From: Thermoanaerobaculum sp.
Lineage (GTDB): Bacteria > Acidobacteriota > Thermoanaerobaculia > Multivoradales > UBA5704
DNA length: 45,947 nucleotides
Assembly: GCA_021154885.1 (NCBI GenBank)
Contig: JAJKHS010000036.1
Coordinates: forward strand, 1-45,947
Direction: 5' to 3'
Each line of letters starts with the position of its first letter. The stretch's first letter is position 1. The position numbers and the translations under genes are program-made. The notes under the pieces are model-generated. The model was not told the DNA's origin. It searched no databases and saw only the letters and a list, made by a program, of their open reading frames with translations. Below are positions 8,992 to 38,371 of the stretch, in pieces.

Positions 8992-9264
8992 CTACTTCGG
9001 CGGGCAGGGCACCGCCTTGCCATCCGGATCCATGCCGCACCCCGCCTTCGGCGGTATGCCCCGTCTCGCCGCCGGGGTTGCGGGCGGGGCCGCCCGCCGC
9101 GAGACGAGGGAGTCCAGCCAGTCCCAGGCCGCCGAGAGCAGCGGCTCGCTCGCCGGAACGGTGTGCGGCGGGTGGGCGGACGAGGCCGGGCGGGCCTGCG
9201 CGGCGCCGGCGGCCAGGAGGGCGAGGACGATCGCGACAGCGGTCCAGCGGGGGATACGAATCAT
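8992..9264 (-). CDS. Small secreted peptide with GMDPDG motif
   Basis: A 90-residue precursor starting at the ATG at 9264, which has GGAG 9 bases upstream (an ATG at 9273 is too close to it). Residues 1-24 form a signal peptide (MIRIPRW, Ala/Leu/Val core, GAAQA). The mature part has a short helix with Trp (LLSAAWDWLDSLVSRR), a Pro/Ala linker and the end GCGMDPDGKAVPCPPK. The Met-Asp-Pro-Asp-Gly-Lys block matches the Leu-Asp-Pro-x-Gly-Lys repeat of the three tandem peptides, here once and flanked by two Cys that could form a disulfide. It precedes the intact zinc-finger/TPR gene by 68 bases. Confidence 0.6.
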   Translation of the reverse strand: MIRIPRWTAVAIVLALLAAGAAQARPASSAHPPHTVPASEPLLSAAWDWLDSLVSRRAAPPATPAARRGIPPKAGCGMDPDGKAVPCPPK

Positions 9265-9450
9265 GACTCTCATCTCCTCTCCGATGGGGTCCCCGCCAGC
9301 AGTCTCCATGACCGCCGGAGGAGACCCAGAGAGGAAAAGAGTGGCACGGACCCCGGGAAAAAGTGCGCAATCGGCCTTAGAGGTTCTAGGGGTTGCAAGA
9401 TCGGACCCGGTTTTTCCGTCTATAGGGGGCAGGAGGATGAAAAAAGACCT

Positions 9451-10152
9451 ATGGACGAGAGACACGAATCTGGATACCGGCTTCTCTTTTCGCAACCCCG
9501 AATGGTGCGGGACCTGCTGCGCGGCTTCCTGCACGAGGAGTGGATCGGCTGGCTCGACCCCGGCACCCTGGAGCGGCGGGCGGTCCCCGCGGCGGAGACC
9601 CCGCCGGACCCGCTCGCCGAGACCCTTCTCTGGCGCCTGCGCTGGCAGGGTGGATCGGCGGCGGTCTACCTGCTCCTCCGGCCGCTGGCGGCGGACGATC
9701 GCTTCGCCGCCGTGCGCCTGTGGGCCGACCGCGGCCTGCTCTATCAGCACCTCCTCCATTACCGTGAGGACAATCGCGAGGCGCGCCGGGGGAGGCCGCT
9801 GCCGCTGGTGCTGCCGGTGGTCCTCTACGGCGGCGGCTCGCCCTGGAGCGCGCCCCGCGACGCCTTCGAGCTCTTCCAGCCGATCCCCGGCCCGCTCCAG
9901 CGCCACCTGCCCCGGATCCCCTATCTGGTCTTCGACGCCGCCCACGACGCGCTGCCGCCGGCGGCCGGCGAGGACAACCTGGTCGCCCTCCTCTGCCGCC
10001 TGGAGCGCAGCCGCTCGCCGCAGACCCTGGACCCGCTGCTCGACCGGCTCGACCGGCTCCTGGATGCGGCGGGCGACGAGGCGCTGTGGCGGGCCTGGAG
10101 CGGGTTCATCGCGCACCGCTTCCCCGACGGCACAGAGACGGCGCCGTGTTGA
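9451..10152 (+). CDS. Rpn/YhgA-like nuclease-related protein
   Basis: The 233-residue product resembles the YhgA-like/Rpn family (recombination-promoting nucleases of the PD-(D/E)XK superfamily): an N-terminal YRLLFSQPRMVRDLLRGFL, then LLWRLRWQGGSAAVYLLLRP, where Val-Tyr-Leu-Leu stands in the core strand, and LPLVLPVVLYGGGSPWSAPR, a strong family block. It is shorter than typical members (about 290-320), mainly in the C-terminal part. The catalytic acidic residues are not clearly conserved: the usual Glu before the hydrophobic strand is not obvious, so activity is doubtful. The ATG at 9451 lies 14 bases after AGGAGG, longer than ideal. It is divergent from the secreted peptide gene. Confidence 0.65.
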   Translation: MDERHESGYRLLFSQPRMVRDLLRGFLHEEWIGWLDPGTLERRAVPAAETPPDPLAETLLWRLRWQGGSAAVYLLLRPLAADDRFAAVRLWADRGLLYQHLLHYREDNREARRGRPLPLVLPVVLYGGGSPWSAPRDAFELFQPIPGPLQRHLPRIPYLVFDAAHDALPPAAGEDNLVALLCRLERSRSPQTLDPLLDRLDRLLDAAGDEALWRAWSGFIAHRFPDGTETAPC

Positions 10153-10184
10153 CGCTCCCCCTCCCCCCCGGTAAGCTCTGCCGG

Positions 10185-11030
10185 ATGAGCGCCGCGACGG
10201 CCGAGCCCTTCCGGCTGACCGGATTGACCGGAGGGGCCGGACGGGCCGCGATCGGCGCTGGCGAGGGCGGCCACCGCTTCGTCGTCGAGATCCCCACGGC
10301 GAGCCCCCTCTTCGCTGGACATTTCCCCGGCCGCCCCATCCTTCCCGGCATCGCCCACCTCGCCCTGGCCCAGCGGGCCTTGGAGGACATCACCGGCCGG
10401 GAGGTCGCTCTCGCCGCCGTCCGCTCCCTCAAGCTGCGCCGGCCCCTGACCCCGGGCGACCGTCTGGAGCTGCGGATCGGCCCCCCTGGAGAGGACGGCG
10501 AGGCGCGGTTCGAGGTGCGCTGCGACGGCGCGGCGGCGAGCCAGGGTGTGGTCGAGGTCTGGAGCGGTCCGCGGCCGGCGGACGGCGACTCCGGCGCGGT
10601 GGATCTTCCGGCGGCGGGCTTCCTCCTGCCGGAGGCCCTCCTCCCTCACCGCCCCCCGGCCCTCCTCCTGCGCGCTATCGCCGAGGTCTCGGAGGGCGCC
10701 ACGATCGCGGTTGCCGCCATCGCCGAGGTCTCCCCGAGCCATCCCCTGGTGGCGGACGGCCGGTTCCCCACCTTTCTCGTCCTGGAGGCCGCGGCCCAGG
10801 CCGCCGCGGCGCTGGAGGCGCTCGGCCGGCGCGAGTCCCCGGGCCCCCGGATCGGCTACCTGGTGGGGATCCGCGACGCCCGTTTCACCGTGCCGTGGCT
10901 GCCGGCGGGGCGCCCCTTGCGCGTCGCCACCCGGCTGGAGGGCGGCGCCTTCCCCCTGTCCATGTATGCGGTGACTGCCGGCGAGGTCGCGTCCGGCACA
11001 CTCAGCACGTTCCTGCTGGCGGATCGGTAG
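10185..11030 (+). CDS. Double-hotdog 3-hydroxyacyl-ACP dehydratase-like protein
   Basis: A 281-residue protein made of two hotdog domains. Domain 1 (about residues 20-130) has FAGHFPGRPILPGIAHLALA, the FabZ/FabA-type motif with its catalytic His, as in ApeI-like dehydratases. Domain 2 (about 145-281) has LLPHRPPALLLRAI and VLEAAAQAAAAL, as in ApeP-like dehydratases. In aryl polyene clusters ApeI and ApeP are separate proteins, so this looks like a fusion. Domain 1 lacks the acidic residue usually found one helix turn after the His motif. It lies about 3 kb from the polyketide-type locus and probably supplies its dehydration step. A GTG at 10146 is a possible earlier start. Confidence 0.7.
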   Translation: MSAATAEPFRLTGLTGGAGRAAIGAGEGGHRFVVEIPTASPLFAGHFPGRPILPGIAHLALAQRALEDITGREVALAAVRSLKLRRPLTPGDRLELRIGPPGEDGEARFEVRCDGAAASQGVVEVWSGPRPADGDSGAVDLPAAGFLLPEALLPHRPPALLLRAIAEVSEGATIAVAAIAEVSPSHPLVADGRFPTFLVLEAAAQAAAALEALGRRESPGPRIGYLVGIRDARFTVPWLPAGRPLRVATRLEGGAFPLSMYAVTAGEVASGTLSTFLLADR

Positions 11031-11045
11031 GGGGACGGGGACGCC

Positions 11046-13535
11046 CTACTCGTGGCGGATCACCGCCATGGGATCGACCCGGGTGGCGGAGTACGCGGGC
11101 AGCGAGCTGGCGGCGAGCCCGACCAGGGCCAGCAGCACGGCGACGGAGATGAAGACGGCCGGATCCGTGGGCGTCACTCCGAAGAGGAGGCTCGAGAACA
11201 CGCTGGTCGCCCACGCCGCACCCATGAGACCGAGGATCAGGCCGGTCAGGGTGAGAGCCAGGCCCCGGCGGATCACCAGGGCCATGATCTCCGAGGACCG
11301 GGCGCCGAGCGCCATGCGGATGCCGAGCTCGCGGGTGCGGCGGCTGACGGCAAAGGCCAGGGTGCCATAGAGACCGATGGCGGTGACCAGCATCGCCACC
11401 AGGCTGAAGCTGCCGAGCAGCCACGAGAAGAGTCGGGGCTGAGCCAGCGTGGCCTGGACTTCGGCGTCCAGCCGGCTCGCCTCGACGGCCAGGTTGGAGT
11501 CGAGCCGGTGGAGGATGGCACGGATCGGACCGACCAGCCGCATCGGGTCGCCGCCCGCCGCCTGCACCTGGAGAGCCATATCCGACTGAGAGCGTTGTGC
11601 CAGGGGGAGATAGAAGTACGGCTGCGCCGTCTCCCGGTTGCGGACCCTGACGTTGCGGGCCACGCCCACCACTTCCCAGGGCTCATTCGCCGGCGTCAGG
11701 ACGACGCGCTCGCCGAGAGGGTTCCTGCCGGGCCAGAGGGTGCCTGCCAGCTCCTCGTCCACGATGGTCACGCCCGGCGCGCCGCGACGATCGGCGGCGG
11801 TGAAGTCGCGGCCGCGGAGCAGCGGGATGCCCAGGGTATGAAAGAAGCCGGGGGAGACGACGGAGTACTCCGCCGTCAACATCTTCCGAGCGGCCTCGCC
11901 GGCGGGCCGCAGATCGGCGAGGCCCCCCCTGCCGTTGGTCTGAGAGAGGGGTACGGTCAGCGTCAGCGCCGCCGATTGGACGCCGGGCAGCTTCTGGACC
12001 TGCTTCAGGAGCTGATCGTAGAGGGCGGCGCTCCTGGCCTCGGAATACCCCGGCCCCAGGAGGTCGATGCGCAGGTCGGCCACTCCGCCCGCGTCGAAGC
12101 CCGGATCGATGGACTGCAGGTTGAAGAGCGTCCGCACGAAAAGCCCCGTGCTGATGAGGAGCACCAGGGAGATCGTGATCTGGCCCACGACGAAGATTTC
12201 CTGCAGGCGGGTGCGACCGCGGTCGAGGACGCCGGCGCCCGCTCCCGGTCGCAGGAGTGGAACCAGCTCGCGCCGGGTGGCCCACAATGCCGGGACGAGG
12301 CCGAAGAGCACCCCCGCGGCGAGCGAGACACCGAGAGTGAACGCCACCACCCGGCCATCCACCTTCAGGTTGTCGATCTTGGGGAGATACTGTCCCAACG
12401 GCAGGCCATGGATGGAATCGATGGCGAAGAGGGCCAGAACGAAACCGGCGGTCCCGCCCAGCAGGGCGAGGACCAGGCTCTCGGTCAGGAGTTGCCGGAC
12501 GAGCCGGCCGCGGGTGACGCCGAGCGCCAGCCGCACGCCGATCTCCTCCTGACGCGCCGCCGCCTTGACCAGCAGGAGACCACCGAGGTTGGCGCAGACC
12601 ACCAGCATCAGGAGTCCCACCAGGACTGAGGCCAGCATCAGCGGGCGGGCCAGCTCGTCCAGGCCGCCCGGCCAGACGCCGAGGCCCGGGTAGACCTGGA
12701 GCCCGGACGGTTTTTCCGCCGCGGGCACCCCCTGGCCCAGCCGGCTCTCCAGCAGGTCCAATTCGGTCTGGGCCCGCTCCGCATCCACTCCGGGAGCCAG
12801 CCGCCCGAAGAACCACAACAGCCAGCCAGGTTTCGGTTTGTAGAGCGATTCCGGCGTCACCGTCGACAAGACCTGGGGCGCCGCCTCGACCGGCAGCCAG
12901 ACATCCGCGGGATCGCTGTACAGCGTGCCCCGGAAACCCTCCGGCGCCACGCCGACGATGGCGAACACGCCGCCGTTCAGCCGCACGGCCCCCCCCACCA
13001 CGGTACGCCGGAGGCCGAAGGTCCGCTGCCAGAGATCGTGGCTGATGACGGCCGGCATCCCCGCCGCCCGCGCTCCCTCTCCCGGCACCAGCAGCCGGCC
13101 CGCTGCGGGACGCAGCCCGAGGACGCTGAAGTAGTTGTCGGTGACCACCTGGCCCCGCACCCGGACCGGCTCTTCCCCGGCCAGCAGGTTCAGGGGCAGC
13201 GGCTGGTAGGCCGCGAGCCCGGAGAAGACGTGACTGGCTCCCCGGTAGTGCTGGAAGCTCGGATAGGAGAGGCCCAGGTTGAGACCCTCGGGAAATCCGT
13301 CGACGGGGGTTGGCTTGGTCCCCAGAGAGACGATCCGGCCCTGCTCCACCACCCCCGGCAGAGGCCGCAGCAACAGGGAGTCGACGACGCTGAACACGGT
13401 GATGCTGGCGCAGATCCCCAGGGCGAGACAGATCACGGCCACCGCCGTGAAACCGGCGTTGTTGTTCATCTTCCGCAAGCCGTAGCGCAGATCGCGAGGC
13501 ATGCGAACGCTCACGCTCGAGAACGGTTGCTCCAT
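11046..13535 (-). CDS. Duplicated orphan ABC permease (ADOP/MacB-type)
   Basis: An 829-residue membrane protein with the layout of the acidobacterial duplicated orphan permeases: a first hydrophobic helix in GFTAVAVICLALGICASITV (near residues 29-48), a large extracytoplasmic MacB-PCD-like domain (VSLGTKPTPVDGFPE to about 290), a three-helix FtsX domain (LMLASVLVGLLMLVVCANLG, SLVLALLGGTAGFVLALFAI, FTLGVSLAAGVLFGLVPALW), then a second periplasmic domain and a second FtsX domain (LLGSFSLVAMLVTAIGLYGT to the end). No ATPase gene is adjacent, as usual for this family. It ends 16 bases from the convergent hotdog gene. The exact start (13535 or the Met at residue 12) is uncertain. Confidence 0.9.
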   Translation of the reverse strand: MEQPFSSVSVRMPRDLRYGLRKMNNNAGFTAVAVICLALGICASITVFSVVDSLLLRPLPGVVEQGRIVSLGTKPTPVDGFPEGLNLGLSYPSFQHYRGASHVFSGLAAYQPLPLNLLAGEEPVRVRGQVVTDNYFSVLGLRPAAGRLLVPGEGARAAGMPAVISHDLWQRTFGLRRTVVGGAVRLNGGVFAIVGVAPEGFRGTLYSDPADVWLPVEAAPQVLSTVTPESLYKPKPGWLLWFFGRLAPGVDAERAQTELDLLESRLGQGVPAAEKPSGLQVYPGLGVWPGGLDELARPLMLASVLVGLLMLVVCANLGGLLLVKAAARQEEIGVRLALGVTRGRLVRQLLTESLVLALLGGTAGFVLALFAIDSIHGLPLGQYLPKIDNLKVDGRVVAFTLGVSLAAGVLFGLVPALWATRRELVPLLRPGAGAGVLDRGRTRLQEIFVVGQITISLVLLISTGLFVRTLFNLQSIDPGFDAGGVADLRIDLLGPGYSEARSAALYDQLLKQVQKLPGVQSAALTLTVPLSQTNGRGGLADLRPAGEAARKMLTAEYSVVSPGFFHTLGIPLLRGRDFTAADRRGAPGVTIVDEELAGTLWPGRNPLGERVVLTPANEPWEVVGVARNVRVRNRETAQPYFYLPLAQRSQSDMALQVQAAGGDPMRLVGPIRAILHRLDSNLAVEASRLDAEVQATLAQPRLFSWLLGSFSLVAMLVTAIGLYGTLAFAVSRRTRELGIRMALGARSSEIMALVIRRGLALTLTGLILGLMGAAWATSVFSSLLFGVTPTDPAVFISVAVLLALVGLAASSLPAYSATRVDPMAVIRHE

Positions 13536-28161: not shown

Positions 28162-30174
28162 TCACTCCGCCGCCGTCACCGCTGCCGGGGGCGGCGTCGG
28201 CACCGGACGGCGGCGGGGACGGTACGGGAAGTACCACACGAAATAGAGAAGCAGTACCAGCAAGCTCAAGACAGGGATAAGGCCACCGCTGAGCTCCACA
28301 ATGGTGCCTATCGAGATCGTGATCGAAAAGAGAATCCACGCTCCCCATAAGAATCTGTTCCAACCGAGCAATTCCTCCACGGTGTAGCCGGTCACCTCGC
28401 TCAGGTCGGGCCGGGTCAGGCCGGAGAGCTCCTCCGGCAGATCCCGGGCGCCCTCTCCCGAGCGCCACCAGGCCGCGAGCGCCTTGGCAAGCCGTCTGGT
28501 GGACAGGCTCGCCGTGAAAACGGACCGCCCGCTCGCCTTGAAGAACAGCGTCCGCAGCCGGCCGTCGCCGTCGCGCCAATCGACGTAGAGGTTGGGCATC
28601 GGCGTCCAGGAGGGCAGTCCGCGGCCGAGCCGCACTCCGGCGATCTCTTCCCGGCGAAGACGGAATCTCGTCTGGTCGCCAGTGTAGGCCATGGCGTCCG
28701 GCCCGAGAAAAAGGAAGCCCACGTCCCAGACTCCGTGCGACTCGTAGAGGCGCGGAGCGCCGTGTGGGCCTAACCCCACGAAGCGGCCACCCGCTCTGTC
28801 GGGAGCGAGCCCTTCGCCCGCCAGCCGCGCCGCGAGCCGCCGCGCCAATCCCCCGTAGCCGGTGAACGAGAGGAGCTGGGCGGCTAGCGTCATCGCCAGG
28901 AGGGTCCCACCGAACGCGACGGCGCACAGCCCCAGCCAGGCCGGTCCCGTCGGGCCGACACGCCCGGCCCAGAGCAACACCGTCGTGGGGCCCGCGACCA
29001 TGAGCAGGATCAGGGTCACGTAGATGAGGGCGGTCGTCGCCTCCTTGAACGCGGCCGTGAACACCCGCTCGGGCTTCTCGACGACCGGGGGCAGCTCGTA
29101 GTGCCCTTCGTCGATCGCCTGCTCGCCCAACCTCGCGGGGTGGATCGAGAGCGACTCCTCGAACGTCGAGCGCACGAGGCGGCGCGGGAGGACGGAGGCC
29201 AGCCACAGACCGGCCAGCACGAGCAGGGGAATGGGATCGAGCGGGATATCGCTCCCCGCCATGTCCCTCCCGAACCAGACGGCGACCGCGCCGCACCCGA
29301 CACCCACCATCAGCAGCAGCTCGAGACGTACGGGACGGCGGCGGGCGAGCTCGCGGGTCAGCTCGGCGTCCACCTCCCGCTTCGACAGGTGGCGCAGCAG
29401 GAAATCGCTGATCAGGAGGTCGTTGCCGCTCGTCGCGATGACCTGGGCGAAATGGCTCCGCTTGGCGGGGAGCACGTAGACCTCGTTCAACTTGACGCCG
29501 ATCCGGCGGGCGAGGTCGAAGGCCCGCTCCCGCAGAGGACCCGGGGGCACAGTCTGGGAGAGCCTGCGGGTGACCCACCGGCGGAACAGCGGCGTCCACG
29601 GCAGGAGGACAAGGGACGCGCCGAGCCAGGCGCCGCCCAGGAGCAGGTCGTCGCGCGCGATCACCAGTCCGAGGAGAAGGAGGGAGACCGAAAGAACCGG
29701 GAGGGAGATCGTGAACAGCAGGTCCCGGAACAGCGCGCCGGGCCAGAGGCCGATTTTCTCGAGGCGCTCGAACTCGTGAGCTGAAATGACCTGGCACGTC
29801 AGGGTGACCAGCGCCGGGGGCGCCACCAGGAGCGCGAGCAGGACGATCGATCGGCCGAAGCTGAAGGACGGGAAGAGGAAGCCGAGGTAAGACTCGAGGC
29901 GCAGGGTGTAGAAGGCGGCGAGCCAGAGGATCCAGACGAGTAGGAGGAGGCCCTGGTGGAATCGCCAATAGCGAAACCAGGCCGCCGCGCGCTCCTCTCC
30001 AGGCGCCGCTGCCAGAAGCTTGCGCCGCCGGATCAGGAGGAAGCAGACAGGAAGGGCGAGCACGGCGAGCAGGACCGCGGCGCGCCAGAGGAGGAGCACC
30101 TGGGCCGTACCAAGGGAGGATAGGGCGAGCGGCAACAACAGCGCGCAACACAATCTGGATGAAGGGAGGCGCAT
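28162..30174 (-). CDS. M48-like membrane protein with degenerate zinc motif
   Basis: A 670-residue protein starting at ATG 30174 (AGGAGGT 9 bases upstream) with a signal-like first helix and about ten further hydrophobic segments. The middle resembles membrane-bound M48 peptidases: VYVLPAKRSHFAQVIATSGN, LLISDFLLRHLSKREVDAEL. Where M48 enzymes have H-E-x-x-H, this protein reads TRELAR, so both zinc His are missing and it should be inactive as a metalloprotease. The C-terminal third (LYVDWRDGDGRLRTLFFKAS, VTGYTVEELLGWNRFLW) is unlike M48 and looks cytoplasmic, possibly PH-like. It may be a regulatory or chaperone-like derivative. No obvious partner gene. Confidence 0.7.
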   Translation of the reverse strand: MRLPSSRLCCALLLPLALSSLGTAQVLLLWRAAVLLAVLALPVCFLLIRRRKLLAAAPGEERAAAWFRYWRFHQGLLLLVWILWLAAFYTLRLESYLGFLFPSFSFGRSIVLLALLVAPPALVTLTCQVISAHEFERLEKIGLWPGALFRDLLFTISLPVLSVSLLLLGLVIARDDLLLGGAWLGASLVLLPWTPLFRRWVTRRLSQTVPPGPLRERAFDLARRIGVKLNEVYVLPAKRSHFAQVIATSGNDLLISDFLLRHLSKREVDAELTRELARRRPVRLELLLMVGVGCGAVAVWFGRDMAGSDIPLDPIPLLVLAGLWLASVLPRRLVRSTFEESLSIHPARLGEQAIDEGHYELPPVVEKPERVFTAAFKEATTALIYVTLILLMVAGPTTVLLWAGRVGPTGPAWLGLCAVAFGGTLLAMTLAAQLLSFTGYGGLARRLAARLAGEGLAPDRAGGRFVGLGPHGAPRLYESHGVWDVGFLFLGPDAMAYTGDQTRFRLRREEIAGVRLGRGLPSWTPMPNLYVDWRDGDGRLRTLFFKASGRSVFTASLSTRRLAKALAAWWRSGEGARDLPEELSGLTRPDLSEVTGYTVEELLGWNRFLWGAWILFSITISIGTIVELSGGLIPVLSLLVLLLYFVWYFPYRPRRRPVPTPPPAAVTAAE

Positions 30175-30283
30175 AGGCGTTATACCTCCTGCAACGATTA
30201 TAATCCAGATCCTTGCTGCGCGCGCTGTTGAACGGCGAGACGTCAAGCCGGACTGCCGCTGGAGCTCAAGGAGGATGGGATTA

Positions 30284-30314
30284 CCACGGGCTACGGGACC
30301 AGGAGCGGCGACAC
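30284..30314 (+). repeat. 31-bp dispersed repeat, copy A
   Basis: CCACGGGCTACGGGACCAGG followed by AGCGGCGACAC. A second copy lies at 38372-38402 with two mismatches. Both are intergenic and in the same orientation. The 195-base gap here also holds a Shine-Dalgarno for the glycosidase gene and nothing else I can name. Confidence 0.55.
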
Positions 30315-30370
30315 CCCCTTCTATAGAGGCCGGGATCCGCCCGGTCTGCCAGTCCTCGCAAGGAGCTGCC

Positions 30371-32038
30371 ATGTCCATGATTCCTGCTCTCCTCCGCCGT
30401 CTGCCTCGCAGACTTGAGGTCCTCGCTTCCCTCGTCGCGCTGTCATGGGCGCAGGCGGCAACCGCCGCCACGCTGACCTCCATCACCATGACGCCCGCCA
30501 ATACCTTTATCGATGCGGGCATCGGGCAGCAATTCACCGCGACCGGGCACTACAATGATGGGACCGCGAAAAACATCACATCCTCGGCCACGTGGTCCTC
30601 CTCCGCGGCTCCGGTCGCCACCATCACCAGCGCGGGCCTCGCGACCGGCAACGGCGGAGGAGTGACGACGATCGCGGCCACGCTCGGCACCGTGACGGGG
30701 AGCACGCCGCTGAACGTTCAGATTCCCGCGAGCTTCTTCAGCCTCTCGATCAATCAGATCAACGAGGCCTGGCCGACCACTCAGAACGTACAGTTCACGA
30801 CCTTGCGTACGCTGGGCGGCTCCATCAAGTGGGCCGACCTCGAAACCTGCGAGGGGGGACCTCTTCCCACCAACCCCTGCTACGACTGGAGCCGCCTGGA
30901 CACCTGGTTCGACAAGTTGCAGCCGGGGCAGGACGTGTTGTTCACGCTCTATGCGACGCCGAGCTGGGCGTCGTCGCGTGGCAACACCTGCCCGGGCGCG
31001 ACCGGCTGCACGGGCAATCCCGACACCAACTGCGCCTTCCAGTCCCAGAACGGCCCCGGCATCTGCGATCCGCCCAAGGGGCTCAACGCGAACGGCACCG
31101 GCGACGATCACCTGTGGACCGATTTCATCAACGCGCTCTACACCCATGTCCTGGACCGCTACGGGGTGCAGAAGATCAAGGTCTGGGAAGTCTGGAACGA
31201 GCCGAACATCAGCACGGAGTGGAACCCGACCGATCCGGTCAACCACAAATACGACCAGCTCGTGACCATGGCGCGGGACGCCTACAACGTCATCAAGCCG
31301 CTGAGCTCGCAGCTTCTGGTCACGACGCCCGCGGTGGCGAACGCGACGCAGGCGGTCACCAATTGGCTGCAGCCCTACTTGAACGCCGGGGGCGGCAATG
31401 TCGCCGACGTCATCGCCGTTCACGGCTACATCCAGAACGGCGCGTGCCCCGCCAACTGTCCGGTCGCCGAAAACGTGGGCACCCTGATCGACAATGCCCG
31501 CTCCGTCATGGCCGCCACGGGCCAGCAGAACAAGCCGCTCCAGGATACCGAGGGAAGTTGGGGCTGTGCCGGCAAAGACCAGAACGGCGCCTGCATCTCC
31601 AGCATCCCCGATCCAGACCAGCAGGCGGCCTTTACCGCCAAGTACTACGCCGTCCAGGTGAGCAAGTCCATGGCCAAATTCGCGTGGTACGGCTACGACT
31701 TCAACGGCACCGGCGAATTCTGGGCTCCCACGAATGGACCGTTGACCCTGGCGGGAGTCGCCTACCAGCAGCTTCACCAATGGCTGGTCGGCGCCGTGCC
31801 CCTGGCGGCTTGCTCCGCGACCGGAACGGTCTGGACCTGCGACTACAAACGAGCCGCCGGCCAGGCGCACAACAAGGAGCGTCTCGTCTGGGACTCCTCC
31901 TGCAGCGACGTGACCTGCCACACGGCCTACTCCGTTCCCAGCATGTTCACGCAGTGCGTCAAACTGGATGGCACGGCCTGTTCGATCACCGGCGGAACCG
32001 CTCAAATCGGGCTCAAGCCGGTTCTGCTCGAAAACTGA
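30371..32038 (+). CDS. Secreted GH-A clan glycoside hydrolase with BIG2-like domain
   Basis: A 555-residue exported protein. GGAG stands 5 bases before the ATG. Signal peptide residues 1-33 (VLASLVALSWAQAATAA); a bacterial Ig-like domain (TLTSITMTPANTFIDAGIGQ, ATWSSSAAPVATITSAGLAT) to about 120; then a (beta/alpha)8 catalytic domain with KVWEVWNEPNIS near residues 270-281, where Glu is the acid/base, and LQDTEGSWGCAG near 390, whose Glu is the likely nucleophile. The motifs are closest in style to GH39 or GH5-like enzymes; the family cannot be fixed by eye. Several Cys pairs suit an extracellular enzyme. Probably acts on plant or microbial polysaccharide. Confidence 0.8.
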   Translation: MSMIPALLRRLPRRLEVLASLVALSWAQAATAATLTSITMTPANTFIDAGIGQQFTATGHYNDGTAKNITSSATWSSSAAPVATITSAGLATGNGGGVTTIAATLGTVTGSTPLNVQIPASFFSLSINQINEAWPTTQNVQFTTLRTLGGSIKWADLETCEGGPLPTNPCYDWSRLDTWFDKLQPGQDVLFTLYATPSWASSRGNTCPGATGCTGNPDTNCAFQSQNGPGICDPPKGLNANGTGDDHLWTDFINALYTHVLDRYGVQKIKVWEVWNEPNISTEWNPTDPVNHKYDQLVTMARDAYNVIKPLSSQLLVTTPAVANATQAVTNWLQPYLNAGGGNVADVIAVHGYIQNGACPANCPVAENVGTLIDNARSVMAATGQQNKPLQDTEGSWGCAGKDQNGACISSIPDPDQQAAFTAKYYAVQVSKSMAKFAWYGYDFNGTGEFWAPTNGPLTLAGVAYQQLHQWLVGAVPLAACSATGTVWTCDYKRAAGQAHNKERLVWDSSCSDVTCHTAYSVPSMFTQCVKLDGTACSITGGTAQIGLKPVLLEN

Positions 32039-32051
32039 GGGATGGACGCAG

Positions 32052-32109
32052 AGCCGGGCACGTTTCGGGTAGCTCCCCCGCGTCGGCCCGGGGTGGTCGG
32101 CGAGCACCC
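32052..32109 (+). repeat. Relic sharing two blocks with the S9 peptidase locus
   Basis: Bases 32052-32089 match 44073-44112, the leader of the S9 peptidase gene, with only two single-base gaps. Bases 32094-32109 (TGGTCGGCGAGCACCC) match 44707-44722 inside that gene, in the same order and orientation. It looks like a deleted copy of a related gene, joined from its leader to its middle. It carries no coding frame. Confidence 0.5.
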
Positions 32110-32123
32110 GCCTCAGGCCCGGC

Positions 32124-32288
32124 TCACCTTTTCGCGTTCATATCGCAGCACTCCGGACTGCACGTGCTCAAGACCGTACACCCCGGACTGCTGATGCTCC
32201 CCGTTATCGTTACCGGCCCCGCTGTGCCAACGTGTTGAAGAGTCTCGGAGCTGAGTCGCAGCTTCTTGGCAGTCTTCGGTTGCAGCAT
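32124..32288 (-). CDS. Lanthipeptide-like RiPP precursor peptide
   Basis: A 54-residue frame with an ideal ribosome site (AAAGGAGG, 8 bases before the ATG at 32288). The N-terminal half is leader-like: Lys-rich with KKLRLSSETLQHV at residues 8-20, resembling the K-x-L-x-L-x-x-E-T-L pattern of many predicted class I lanthipeptide leaders. A Gly-Thr-Ala-Gly stretch follows and may be the cleavage region. The C-terminal core is rich in Ser/Thr and ends with four Cys in CTVLSTCSPECC (residues 37-48), then DMNAKR. The candidate extended -10 box lies 34 bases upstream. No LanB, LanC, protease or transporter gene is in the window, so maturation would need enzymes elsewhere. It is divergent from the sigma factor gene. 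Confidence 0.65.
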   Translation of the reverse strand: MLQPKTAKKLRLSSETLQHVGTAGPVTITGSISSPGCTVLSTCSPECCDMNAKR

Positions 32289-32321
32289 CGAAGGATCCTC
32301 CTTTCATTAGATTACGCAGAC

Positions 32322-32330
32322 ATTGTACCA
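32322..32330 (-). promoter_or_regulatory. Extended -10 promoter element of the precursor gene
   Basis: On the reverse strand TGGTACAAT gives a TG-N-TACAAT extended -10 box, 33 bases before the precursor ATG at 32288. No good -35 hexamer is seen 16-18 bases upstream, which is acceptable for an extended -10 promoter. Confidence 0.4.
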
Positions 32331-32446
32331 TGCAGGTGCGGGTGACCGCCTGTCTTTGACCTCGCGCTTCCCATGCGGCACACTGGTAGTCTCTGAAGCG
32401 GATTACCAACGCGCCGATCGCCGGTCGGCAGGGAGAGCCCGAATTC

Positions 32447-33058
32447 GTGTCTCAGACCAGGAGGCCAGGCCCCTCATCGAGCCGGATCACTCAGCTTCTC
32501 GTGGAGTGGCGCGGCGGCGACGAGCGCGCTCTCGAGGAGCTGGCACCTCTGGTCTACGGCGAGCTGAACCGGCTCGCGCGGCTCTACTTCAACCGCGAGC
32601 GAAAACGGCCGACGCTGGAGACGCGCGACCTGGTTCACGACGCCTTCGTGAGGCTGTGCGATCTCCAGACCGTCGACTGGCAGAGCCGCGTCCATTTCTT
32701 CGCGGTCGCCGCCCGCATCATGCGGCGGATCCTCATCGATCGCGCGCGGAAGCGTCAGAGCTCGAAACAGGGTGGCGATCTCGTCCTGCTGAGACTCGAC
32801 GAGATTCCCGAGCTGGCGGTGGAGAGGAGCGCTGACCTGGTGGCGCTGGACGATGCCCTGACGGAGCTCGAGGCCGTGGACGAGACTCTCGCCAGAATCG
32901 TCGAGCTGCGGTTCTTCGGTGGCCTGGGCCATGATGAGATCGCCGCCGTCCTGGGCCTCTCCAATCCCACGGTGCGCCGGCACTGGCGGCTCGCCAAGAG
33001 CTGGCTTCATCGCCGGCTCAGTGGCGCCGTCACGGGAGAGATCCATGGCGGAGGCTGA
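32447..33058 (+). CDS. ECF-type RNA polymerase sigma factor
   Basis: The 203-residue product has sigma region 2 (ALEELAPLVYGELNRLARLY, then TRDLVHDAFVRLCDL and VHFFAVAARIMRRILIDRAR) and region 4 with a helix-turn-helix (LRFFGGLGHDEIAAVLGLSN followed by PTVRRHWRLAKSWLHRRL). It is of the ECF subgroup common in Acidobacteriota and Planctomycetota, which is usually linked to Ser/Thr kinases rather than anti-sigma factors. Start GTG 32447 has GGGAG 10 bases upstream. Its end overlaps the kinase gene by 14 bases, so both are made together and the kinase probably controls it by phosphorylation or binding. Confidence 0.9.
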   Translation: MSQTRRPGPSSSRITQLLVEWRGGDERALEELAPLVYGELNRLARLYFNRERKRPTLETRDLVHDAFVRLCDLQTVDWQSRVHFFAVAARIMRRILIDRARKRQSSKQGGDLVLLRLDEIPELAVERSADLVALDDALTELEAVDETLARIVELRFFGGLGHDEIAAVLGLSNPTVRRHWRLAKSWLHRRLSGAVTGEIHGGG

Positions 33059-37803: not shown

Positions 37804-38125
37804 AGATTAGACGTTTTCAGAAACACTCGGCACCCGCTCTTCATCCGAAAGACTCCGTACTTTAGTGCCATCAGTTGAGCGGCCGCGTTAGCAGTCCGCT
37901 CGAGCCGCTGTGTTACCCCCGCTTCGGGCCAGCTGCGCCTCCGCTATTCCGCGCGCTCAGGTATGCAGATATCTATGGCACGAACCGGTCGGCCTGTCAA
38001 GAGGCCTCTTGACATTTCCCGGCCCTATGCACGACTATGCCTTGGCTGGGGGGCGCATGACAGCGAGAAACACCGCGAAGCACACTCCCGGTCCGCTGCG
38101 CTTGCGTATAAGGAACGAGTCGCGT

Positions 38126-38335
38126 ATGACCTCATTCGAGTTGCAGGTCACCTCATCCGCGGGGCGAATGACCTCATCCGCGTTGCAGGTCATCTCATTC
38201 GCGGGGCAAGTGACCTCATCCGAGTTGCGGATCATCTCATCCGCGGATTGAGTGATCTCATCCGAGTTGCGGATCACCTCATCCACGGATTGAGTGATCT
38301 CATCCGAGTTGCAGATGACCTGACTCGCGGGGCCG
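38126..38335 (+). repeat. Five tandem 42-bp repeats (ten 21-bp half units)
   Basis: Units start at 38126, 38168, 38210, 38252 and 38294 and share ATGACCTCATCCGAGTTGCA with the second half GTCACCTCATCCGCGGGGCA. Since 21 and 42 are multiples of three, several frames stay open: the plus frame from 37963 to 38595 reads DLIRVAG/HLIRGAN heptads, and the minus frame 38035-38286 reads NSDEVT/NADEM-like repeats. Neither has a convincing start site, so I annotate only the repeat. Bases 37804-38125 before it hold no gene I can support. Confidence 0.75.
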
Positions 38336-38371
38336 CCGCCACGCTACTCGAACGCGGCAGGCCTATGCCGG

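Follow-up and report, generated by a model that had tools for sequence, protein, structure and literature searches.

The window analyzed here, a stretch of 45,947 bases, comprises bases 1-45947 of contig C36 in a genome of 8.2 Mb assembled into 161 contigs. At 32124..32288 lies an intact reading frame of 54 codons plus stop, the position and length that the initial annotation had given; it is on the minus strand, with the ATG at 32288-32286 and the stop codon at 32126-32124. The 54-residue product reads MLQPKTAKKLRLSSETLQHVGTAGPVTITGSISSPGCTVLSTCSPECCDMNAKR; it does not end at CTVLSTCSPECC, as had been claimed, since DMNAKR comes after this motif. The frame is preceded by the perfect Shine-Dalgarno sequence described earlier (aaaggagg, 32304-32297, minus strand), 8 nt upstream of the ATG, and strong Shine-Dalgarno sequences are found upstream of 36 of the 53 members of the peptide family discussed below versus 20 of 371 background windows. 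The extended -10-like box TGGTACAAT (32330-32322, minus strand) is likewise present, though as a promoter signal it is at best weakly suggestive: among the 53 family members, 4 carry TGnTAnnnT in the 150 bp upstream, where 2.3 are expected from shuffled sequences, and on the same count we rejected an extended -10 as a feature common to the family. Scans of 31900-32600 on both strands returned no sigma-70 promoter and no terminator. Other mechanical reading frames overlap the gene, including a same-strand frame of 98 aa at 32113-32409.

The neighbors are those named in the initial annotation, a glycosidase and a sigma factor. A plus-strand gene at 30020-32038, convergent with the orphan gene, encodes a protein that matches Big_2 and, weakly, GH39, and a plus-strand gene for an ECF sigma factor (32447-33058) is divergent from it; a gene for a Ser/Thr kinase-TPR protein comes next. 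The absence of a maturation enzyme from the window was confirmed inasmuch as contig C36 contains no match to PF04738 (LanB), PF05147 (LanC-like) or PF13575 (LanM). The congener G001 has an orthologous sigma-kinase locus, recognizable at 80% nucleotide identity, and its contig extends for 434 bp beyond the matching part on the upstream side. Inspection by eye of those 434 bp revealed no leader gene and a repeat instead, from which it follows that the orphan gene was either acquired in the present genome or, in G001, lost or relocated. The sister locus L185 is filled from about 1 to 300 with a gagcagacctg-like repeat (by eye). The window has a degenerate repeat ORF of its own at 38035-38343 on the minus strand (SDEITQSVDEVIRNSDE...), which resembles one at C75:33644-34402 and differs from the L185 repeat.

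Alignment of the product with 13 relatives divides it, at a predicted boundary, into a leader of 31 residues containing KKLRLSSETLQHV (32196..32288, minus strand) and a core of residues 32-54, ISSPGCTVLSTCSPECCDMNAKR (32127..32195, minus strand). The core is Ser/Thr/Cys-rich, as had been observed, with four Cys and six Ser/Thr, a composition suited to ring formation; all four Cys lie there and none in the leader. Within the 14-ORF alignment the columns of E15, T16, G30 and C48 are invariant, and those of K9, L10, L12 and V20 (Leu in nearly all others) are nearly so. The family consensus is MKKxxKKLxLxRETLRxL...GG, from which the window leader diverges by S-S-E-T for x-R-E-T, L-Q-H-V for L-R-x-L, and GS for GG. 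Its G30-S31 aligns with the GG of the relatives, most of which carry GG, AG or GA. Passages of one account count G-S, along with GG and GA, as a double-glycine-like site for C39 peptidases and place hydrophobic residues at positions -4, -7 and -12 (PMC10885120); measured against this rule, G30-S31 has I28 at -4 and V20 at -12, but P25 at -7. An automatic site picker placed the cut at A23-G24, one of its 14 AG sites. This was set aside as a matter of judgement in favor of G30-S31, because the alignment places G30 in the invariant Gly column. We put cleavage after G30-S31 at slightly below an even chance.

Since the first profile of the family contained the window row, the profile was rebuilt from the 13 relatives without it. 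The search space of this leave-one-out test was 13,292 ORFs from 46 partly overlapping regions (877,584 bp), comprising the window, the regions of LanB and of the C45 LanM, and those picked out by the first genome-wide search; it gives no independent family count, and five of its 53 matches are among the 13 rows of the model. The orphan gene scored 32.9 bits (E 4.4e-8) and ranked 39 of 53. Scores fell from 25.0 bits for the 53rd family ORF to 11.1 bits for the ORF ranked after it. Because of this score and the wide gap to the next ORF, chance is for practical purposes excluded as the source of the match. As a query on its own the peptide is less informative: against its own genome and two congeners it gave weak matches, many of them small ORFs with the same leader, and at E≤0.003 it recovered only itself from its own genome and those of the order, with no ortholog in any of the order's 71 other genomes. 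Scanning the peptide against NCBIfam and Pfam at E≤10, with HMMER filters that drop most weak matches, returned no family. Of the 14 aligned members, 13 have a match to the NCBIfam model NF038153 ('class I lanthipeptide') at E≤10, with 1.6e-7 as the lowest value. The window gene is the sole member without a match; it lies below the lant_leader_L1a cut-off of NF038153 and is not filed under that model. We are nonetheless highly confident that it is a real precursor gene of this leader family.

A genome-wide search with the 14-row alignment, window included, found at least 53 ORFs at E≤1e-3. This number is a lower bound, the own-genome searches having scored the best 150 of 239 and the best 104 of 171 first-look candidates. 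Further copies of the leader, which the initial annotation had proposed to look for, are thus plentiful, at 53 or more here and 46 and 33 in two congeners. The 53 members are spread over 44 places on 33 contigs. Their leaders are similar, with a median pairwise identity of 0.48 (0.26 when shuffled), versus 0.32 for the cores (0.30 when shuffled). Cys makes up 16.3% of the family cores, 0.1% of the leaders and 1.2% of neighboring genes, and 52 of the 53 cores have at least three Cys and at least three Ser/Thr. Conservation of the Cys pattern among relatives, which had been named as a check, was not found: richness in Cys alone is common to the paralogs, and its spacing is private to each. To judge from the sequences, this is what a library of constant leaders and variable cores would show. 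Two tandem pairs display the same tendency at close range, with leaders 90% alike and cores 57% on C66, and 86% and 55% on C46. One family member, at C88:14961-15170 (L080), has a hydrophobic core without Cys (GGTLPLTVTLVPLATALAIETGILVYHAYKNVTG) and cannot form lanthionine rings. The N-termini of several members are uncertain: GTG starts were used at C143:124258, C1:85515, C53:110085 and C69:38617, the first codon is CTC in the C13 and C34 members, and an in-frame ATG lies a few codons upstream (by eye) of the C108 and C41:61412 members. The leader alignment A2 takes in 48 of the 53 leaders and leaves out five.

Four of the 44 places have a LanB, LanC or LanM match within 10 kb, a count in which neighbors may be missed where contigs are short. 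The precursor at C75:2276 is about 0.35 kb from a LanC match and 3.4 kb from a LanB match; that at C1:110765 is 0.4 kb from a LanC match; that at C1:32671 is 8.4 kb from LanC and 9.7 kb from LanB; and that at C143:50465 is about 3-3.5 kb from a LanM, on the opposite strand. Clustering 288 genes located within 3 kb of members, with 290 genes from beyond 5 kb as the comparison, led us to reject a common neighbor as the explanation of the scatter, the largest near cluster covering only 5 of the 44 places. Three of its five members, those that were scanned, are sensor histidine kinases of differing architecture, and because of that difference we regard the cluster as a generic family. A cluster of LanC/LanM neighbors and one other each cover 3 of the 44 places, and the largest far clusters likewise reach 3.

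The genome contains the LanB and LanC enzymes whose presence elsewhere the initial annotation had made a test of its reading. There are three matches to PF04738. Two are full-length LanB proteins carrying both PF04738 and PF14028, on C75 and C1; they share 31% identity over 1072 aa, and each adjoins a LanC. These LanC proteins retain WCYG and CHG, which we take to be the zinc-site motifs. In the named collection, Thermoanaerobaculia and Acidobacteria gp7 genomes are among those with the most similar LanB proteins (75-77% identity), by which the window genome would belong to Acidobacteriota. The third LanB, on C83, is split, with PF14028 on a separate protein. At that locus (L007, about 9017-13319) the PF14028 protein is followed by the PF04738 protein and both are preceded by two similar small ORFs, one of which reads KALNLEVESLETYCNPGCGSSSTDPRCTCPIS; a C39 peptidase match lies about 7 kb from the split LanB. 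The C83 locus is a RiPP cluster of another kind. C39 peptidases (PF03412), a family that also matches in 8 of 14 control genomes, have three matches in this one, on C81, C83 and C45. Besides LanB there are six PF13575 (LanM) matches and 16 LanC-like matches, 10 of the latter inside open frames of at least 700 aa, and the genome looks lanthipeptide-rich. Directly upstream of the C143 LanM (C143 52485-53395, L064) are three class II-type precursor-like ORFs with the leader MNKIDVIRAWKDPxYR.

Of 72 genomes of the order, 8 have the leader family: the three of the genus, with 53, 46 and 33 matches, one of the sister genus, with 11, and four others, with 7, 3, 2 and 1. All eight have a PF04738 match at E<1e-100, compared with 1 of the 64 genomes without the leader; the Fisher p of 7.5e-10 overstates this association, since the threshold was chosen after viewing the data and the genomes are related. 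A PF04738 match of any strength is present in 8 of 8 and 9 of 64, respectively. The strong LanB match of G001 is broken into two pieces, and G070 has a strong LanB match and no leader match. In four of the genomes that have fewer copies, the nearest leader gene is within 2 kb of a strong LanB match, at five places (G068 C255, G068 C240, G009 C44, G007 C35 and G071 C101). Homologs with a conserved leader, which had also been sought, extend beyond the phylum: a search of named genomes with the C75 LanB yielded 80 LanB loci, and in 25 of them the leave-one-out profile found a leader-family ORF at E<1e-3; these 25 span Acidobacteriota, Paenibacillus, Myxococcota and others. No such ORF was found at that threshold in the other 55, some of which are short contigs. 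The leave-one-out profile detected no leader-family ORF in the C45 LanM region (L083). Because the leader follows strong LanB from genome to genome within the order and is also present at LanB loci in other phyla, it is taken, on its sequence associations, to be a LanB-class leader. In a sample of the phylum in which 18 candidates were scored per genome, 12 of 396 genomes had a leader match, with at least 18 in the present genome and at most 3 elsewhere; G001, G002, G007, G068 and G071 are absent from the 12 and were apparently not drawn.

With the gene, its family, the presence of the enzymes and the association of leader and LanB established, the best overall explanation is probably that the orphan gene specifies a class I lanthipeptide-type precursor and belongs to a set of about 53, each of which combines the common leader with a private core. 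The initial annotation's reading of it as such is thereby supported, by the leader family, by LanB and LanC in the genome and by the leader-LanB association. By the same evidence the peptide is likely to be modified in trans by LanB and LanC. The leader, with its KKLRLSSETLQHV, would be bound by a LanB encoded elsewhere, perhaps the C75 or the C1 enzyme, which would dehydrate Ser and Thr of the core using glutamyl-tRNA; a LanC would then add the four Cys, giving up to four (methyl)lanthionine rings in ISSPGCTVLSTCSPECCDMNAKR. Cleavage of the leader would follow near G30-S31, with the three C39-matching proteins as candidate peptidases, and the mature peptide would presumably be exported. As to its role, our guess is defense against, or signaling to, neighbors.

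A real precursor could instead be modified by a different enzyme, such as one of the six LanM proteins or a kinase-cyclase, and the genome offers ample candidates in its six PF13575 and 16 LanC-like matches, 10 of these in frames of at least 700 aa. One family precursor, at C143:50465, is moreover about 3 kb from a LanM. That LanM, however, is accompanied by its own three precursor-like ORFs, which have an unrelated leader and lie on the same strand directly upstream, whereas the family precursor is on the strand opposite to it, and the C45 LanM region has no leader-family ORF. The tracking of the leader with strong LanB across the order and its presence in LanB loci of other phyla also speak against such an enzyme, which we consider improbable. 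We give a marginally higher, still low, probability to decay or loss of function of the window gene, as a copy that no longer has the GG site or the strict leader and has ceased to be matured. Its divergent leader, the missing GG, the silence of the NCBIfam and Pfam models, the lack of an ortholog and the lack of a visible counterpart at the orthologous G001 locus would all fit decay. The frame is nevertheless intact and has its perfect Shine-Dalgarno sequence, and the division between a leader without Cys and a core with four has been kept. G-S is, in the same passages on C39 sites, counted as double-glycine-like (PMC10885120), and leaders of this type without GG are found within 2 kb of LanB in Corallococcus and Myxococcus-type loci, with a match at E 7.8e-6 in L116 and only weak ones in L111, L114 and L117 (E 0.004-0.024).

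That the ORF is a chance reading frame unrelated to lanthipeptides is the least probable reading, and very improbable in our judgement. It would account for the shortness of the ORF, the silence of the curated models, the missing ortholog and the overlap with other mechanical frames, among them the 98 aa frame at 32113-32409 on the same strand; against it stand the leave-one-out E of 4.4e-8 with its gap to the next ORF, the Shine-Dalgarno sequence, and a Cys-rich C-terminus that aligns with those of 13 relatives. We retain, as probable, the reading of a class I precursor served in trans. As a single gene it is a modest find, and the genus-wide class I library is of more interest. We lean, by a narrow margin over even, toward the view that a class I equivalent of the prochlorosins arose in the genus, in which one or two LanB/LanC sets would serve 33-53 scattered precursors in trans and the cores would be rapidly replaced, the window gene being a recent gain with an altered cleavage site.

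In the open-licence literature we found no report of a scattered class I lanthipeptide repertoire. Acidobacteriota class II and III lanthipeptide clusters appear in part of a coral study (PMC13083261), and scattered, trans-served libraries are described, in passages of one source, for class II enzymes of picocyanobacteria (PMC10783134). If the view given above is true, LanB enzymes can likewise serve dozens of unlinked substrates, the genus would be a source of natural broad-range class I enzymes, and it would reveal lone peptides that cluster-based miners overlook because the precursors sit alone.

Among class I systems the nearest comparison is with the LxLxKx5L leaders, many of them ending in GG, that are described in sections of a survey of Bacteroidetes precursors (Walker et al. 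2020, PMC7268733). Like these, the family has a leader with spaced Leu and, in most paralogs, a GG, AG or GA end, a core rich in Cys and Ser/Thr, and an association with fused LanB and with LanC. Unlike them, the window gene is an unclustered orphan with no NF038153 match and with GS in place of GG. Those sections single out one class I cluster with ten distinct precursors as exceptional (PMC7268733), whereas about 53 are present here, scattered in one genome.

The closest parallel in number and arrangement is the class II prochlorosin/SyncA group, for which excerpts of a published account give 29 precursors for ProcM and 83 and 79 in two Synechococcus strains, state that the genes may be scattered singly over the genome, and report the modification of many substrates by one enzyme in the ProcM/SyncM systems of Prochlorococcus and Synechococcus (PMC10783134). 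The present family is similar in its dozens of scattered precursors with a constant leader, a GG site and variable cores. It differs in its leader family and presumed phylum, in its probable use of LanB and LanC, where the cyanobacterial systems use LanM, and in possessing two full-length LanB proteins; service of many substrates is reported for those systems and can be proposed here by analogy. Filing the family as prochlorosin was rejected, the leader being associated with LanB and the C143 LanM having other precursor-like ORFs. By that analogy, we infer that the expansion in this genus, with 53, 46 and 33 precursors, may be to class I what the scattered prochlorosin/SyncA repertoires are to class II.
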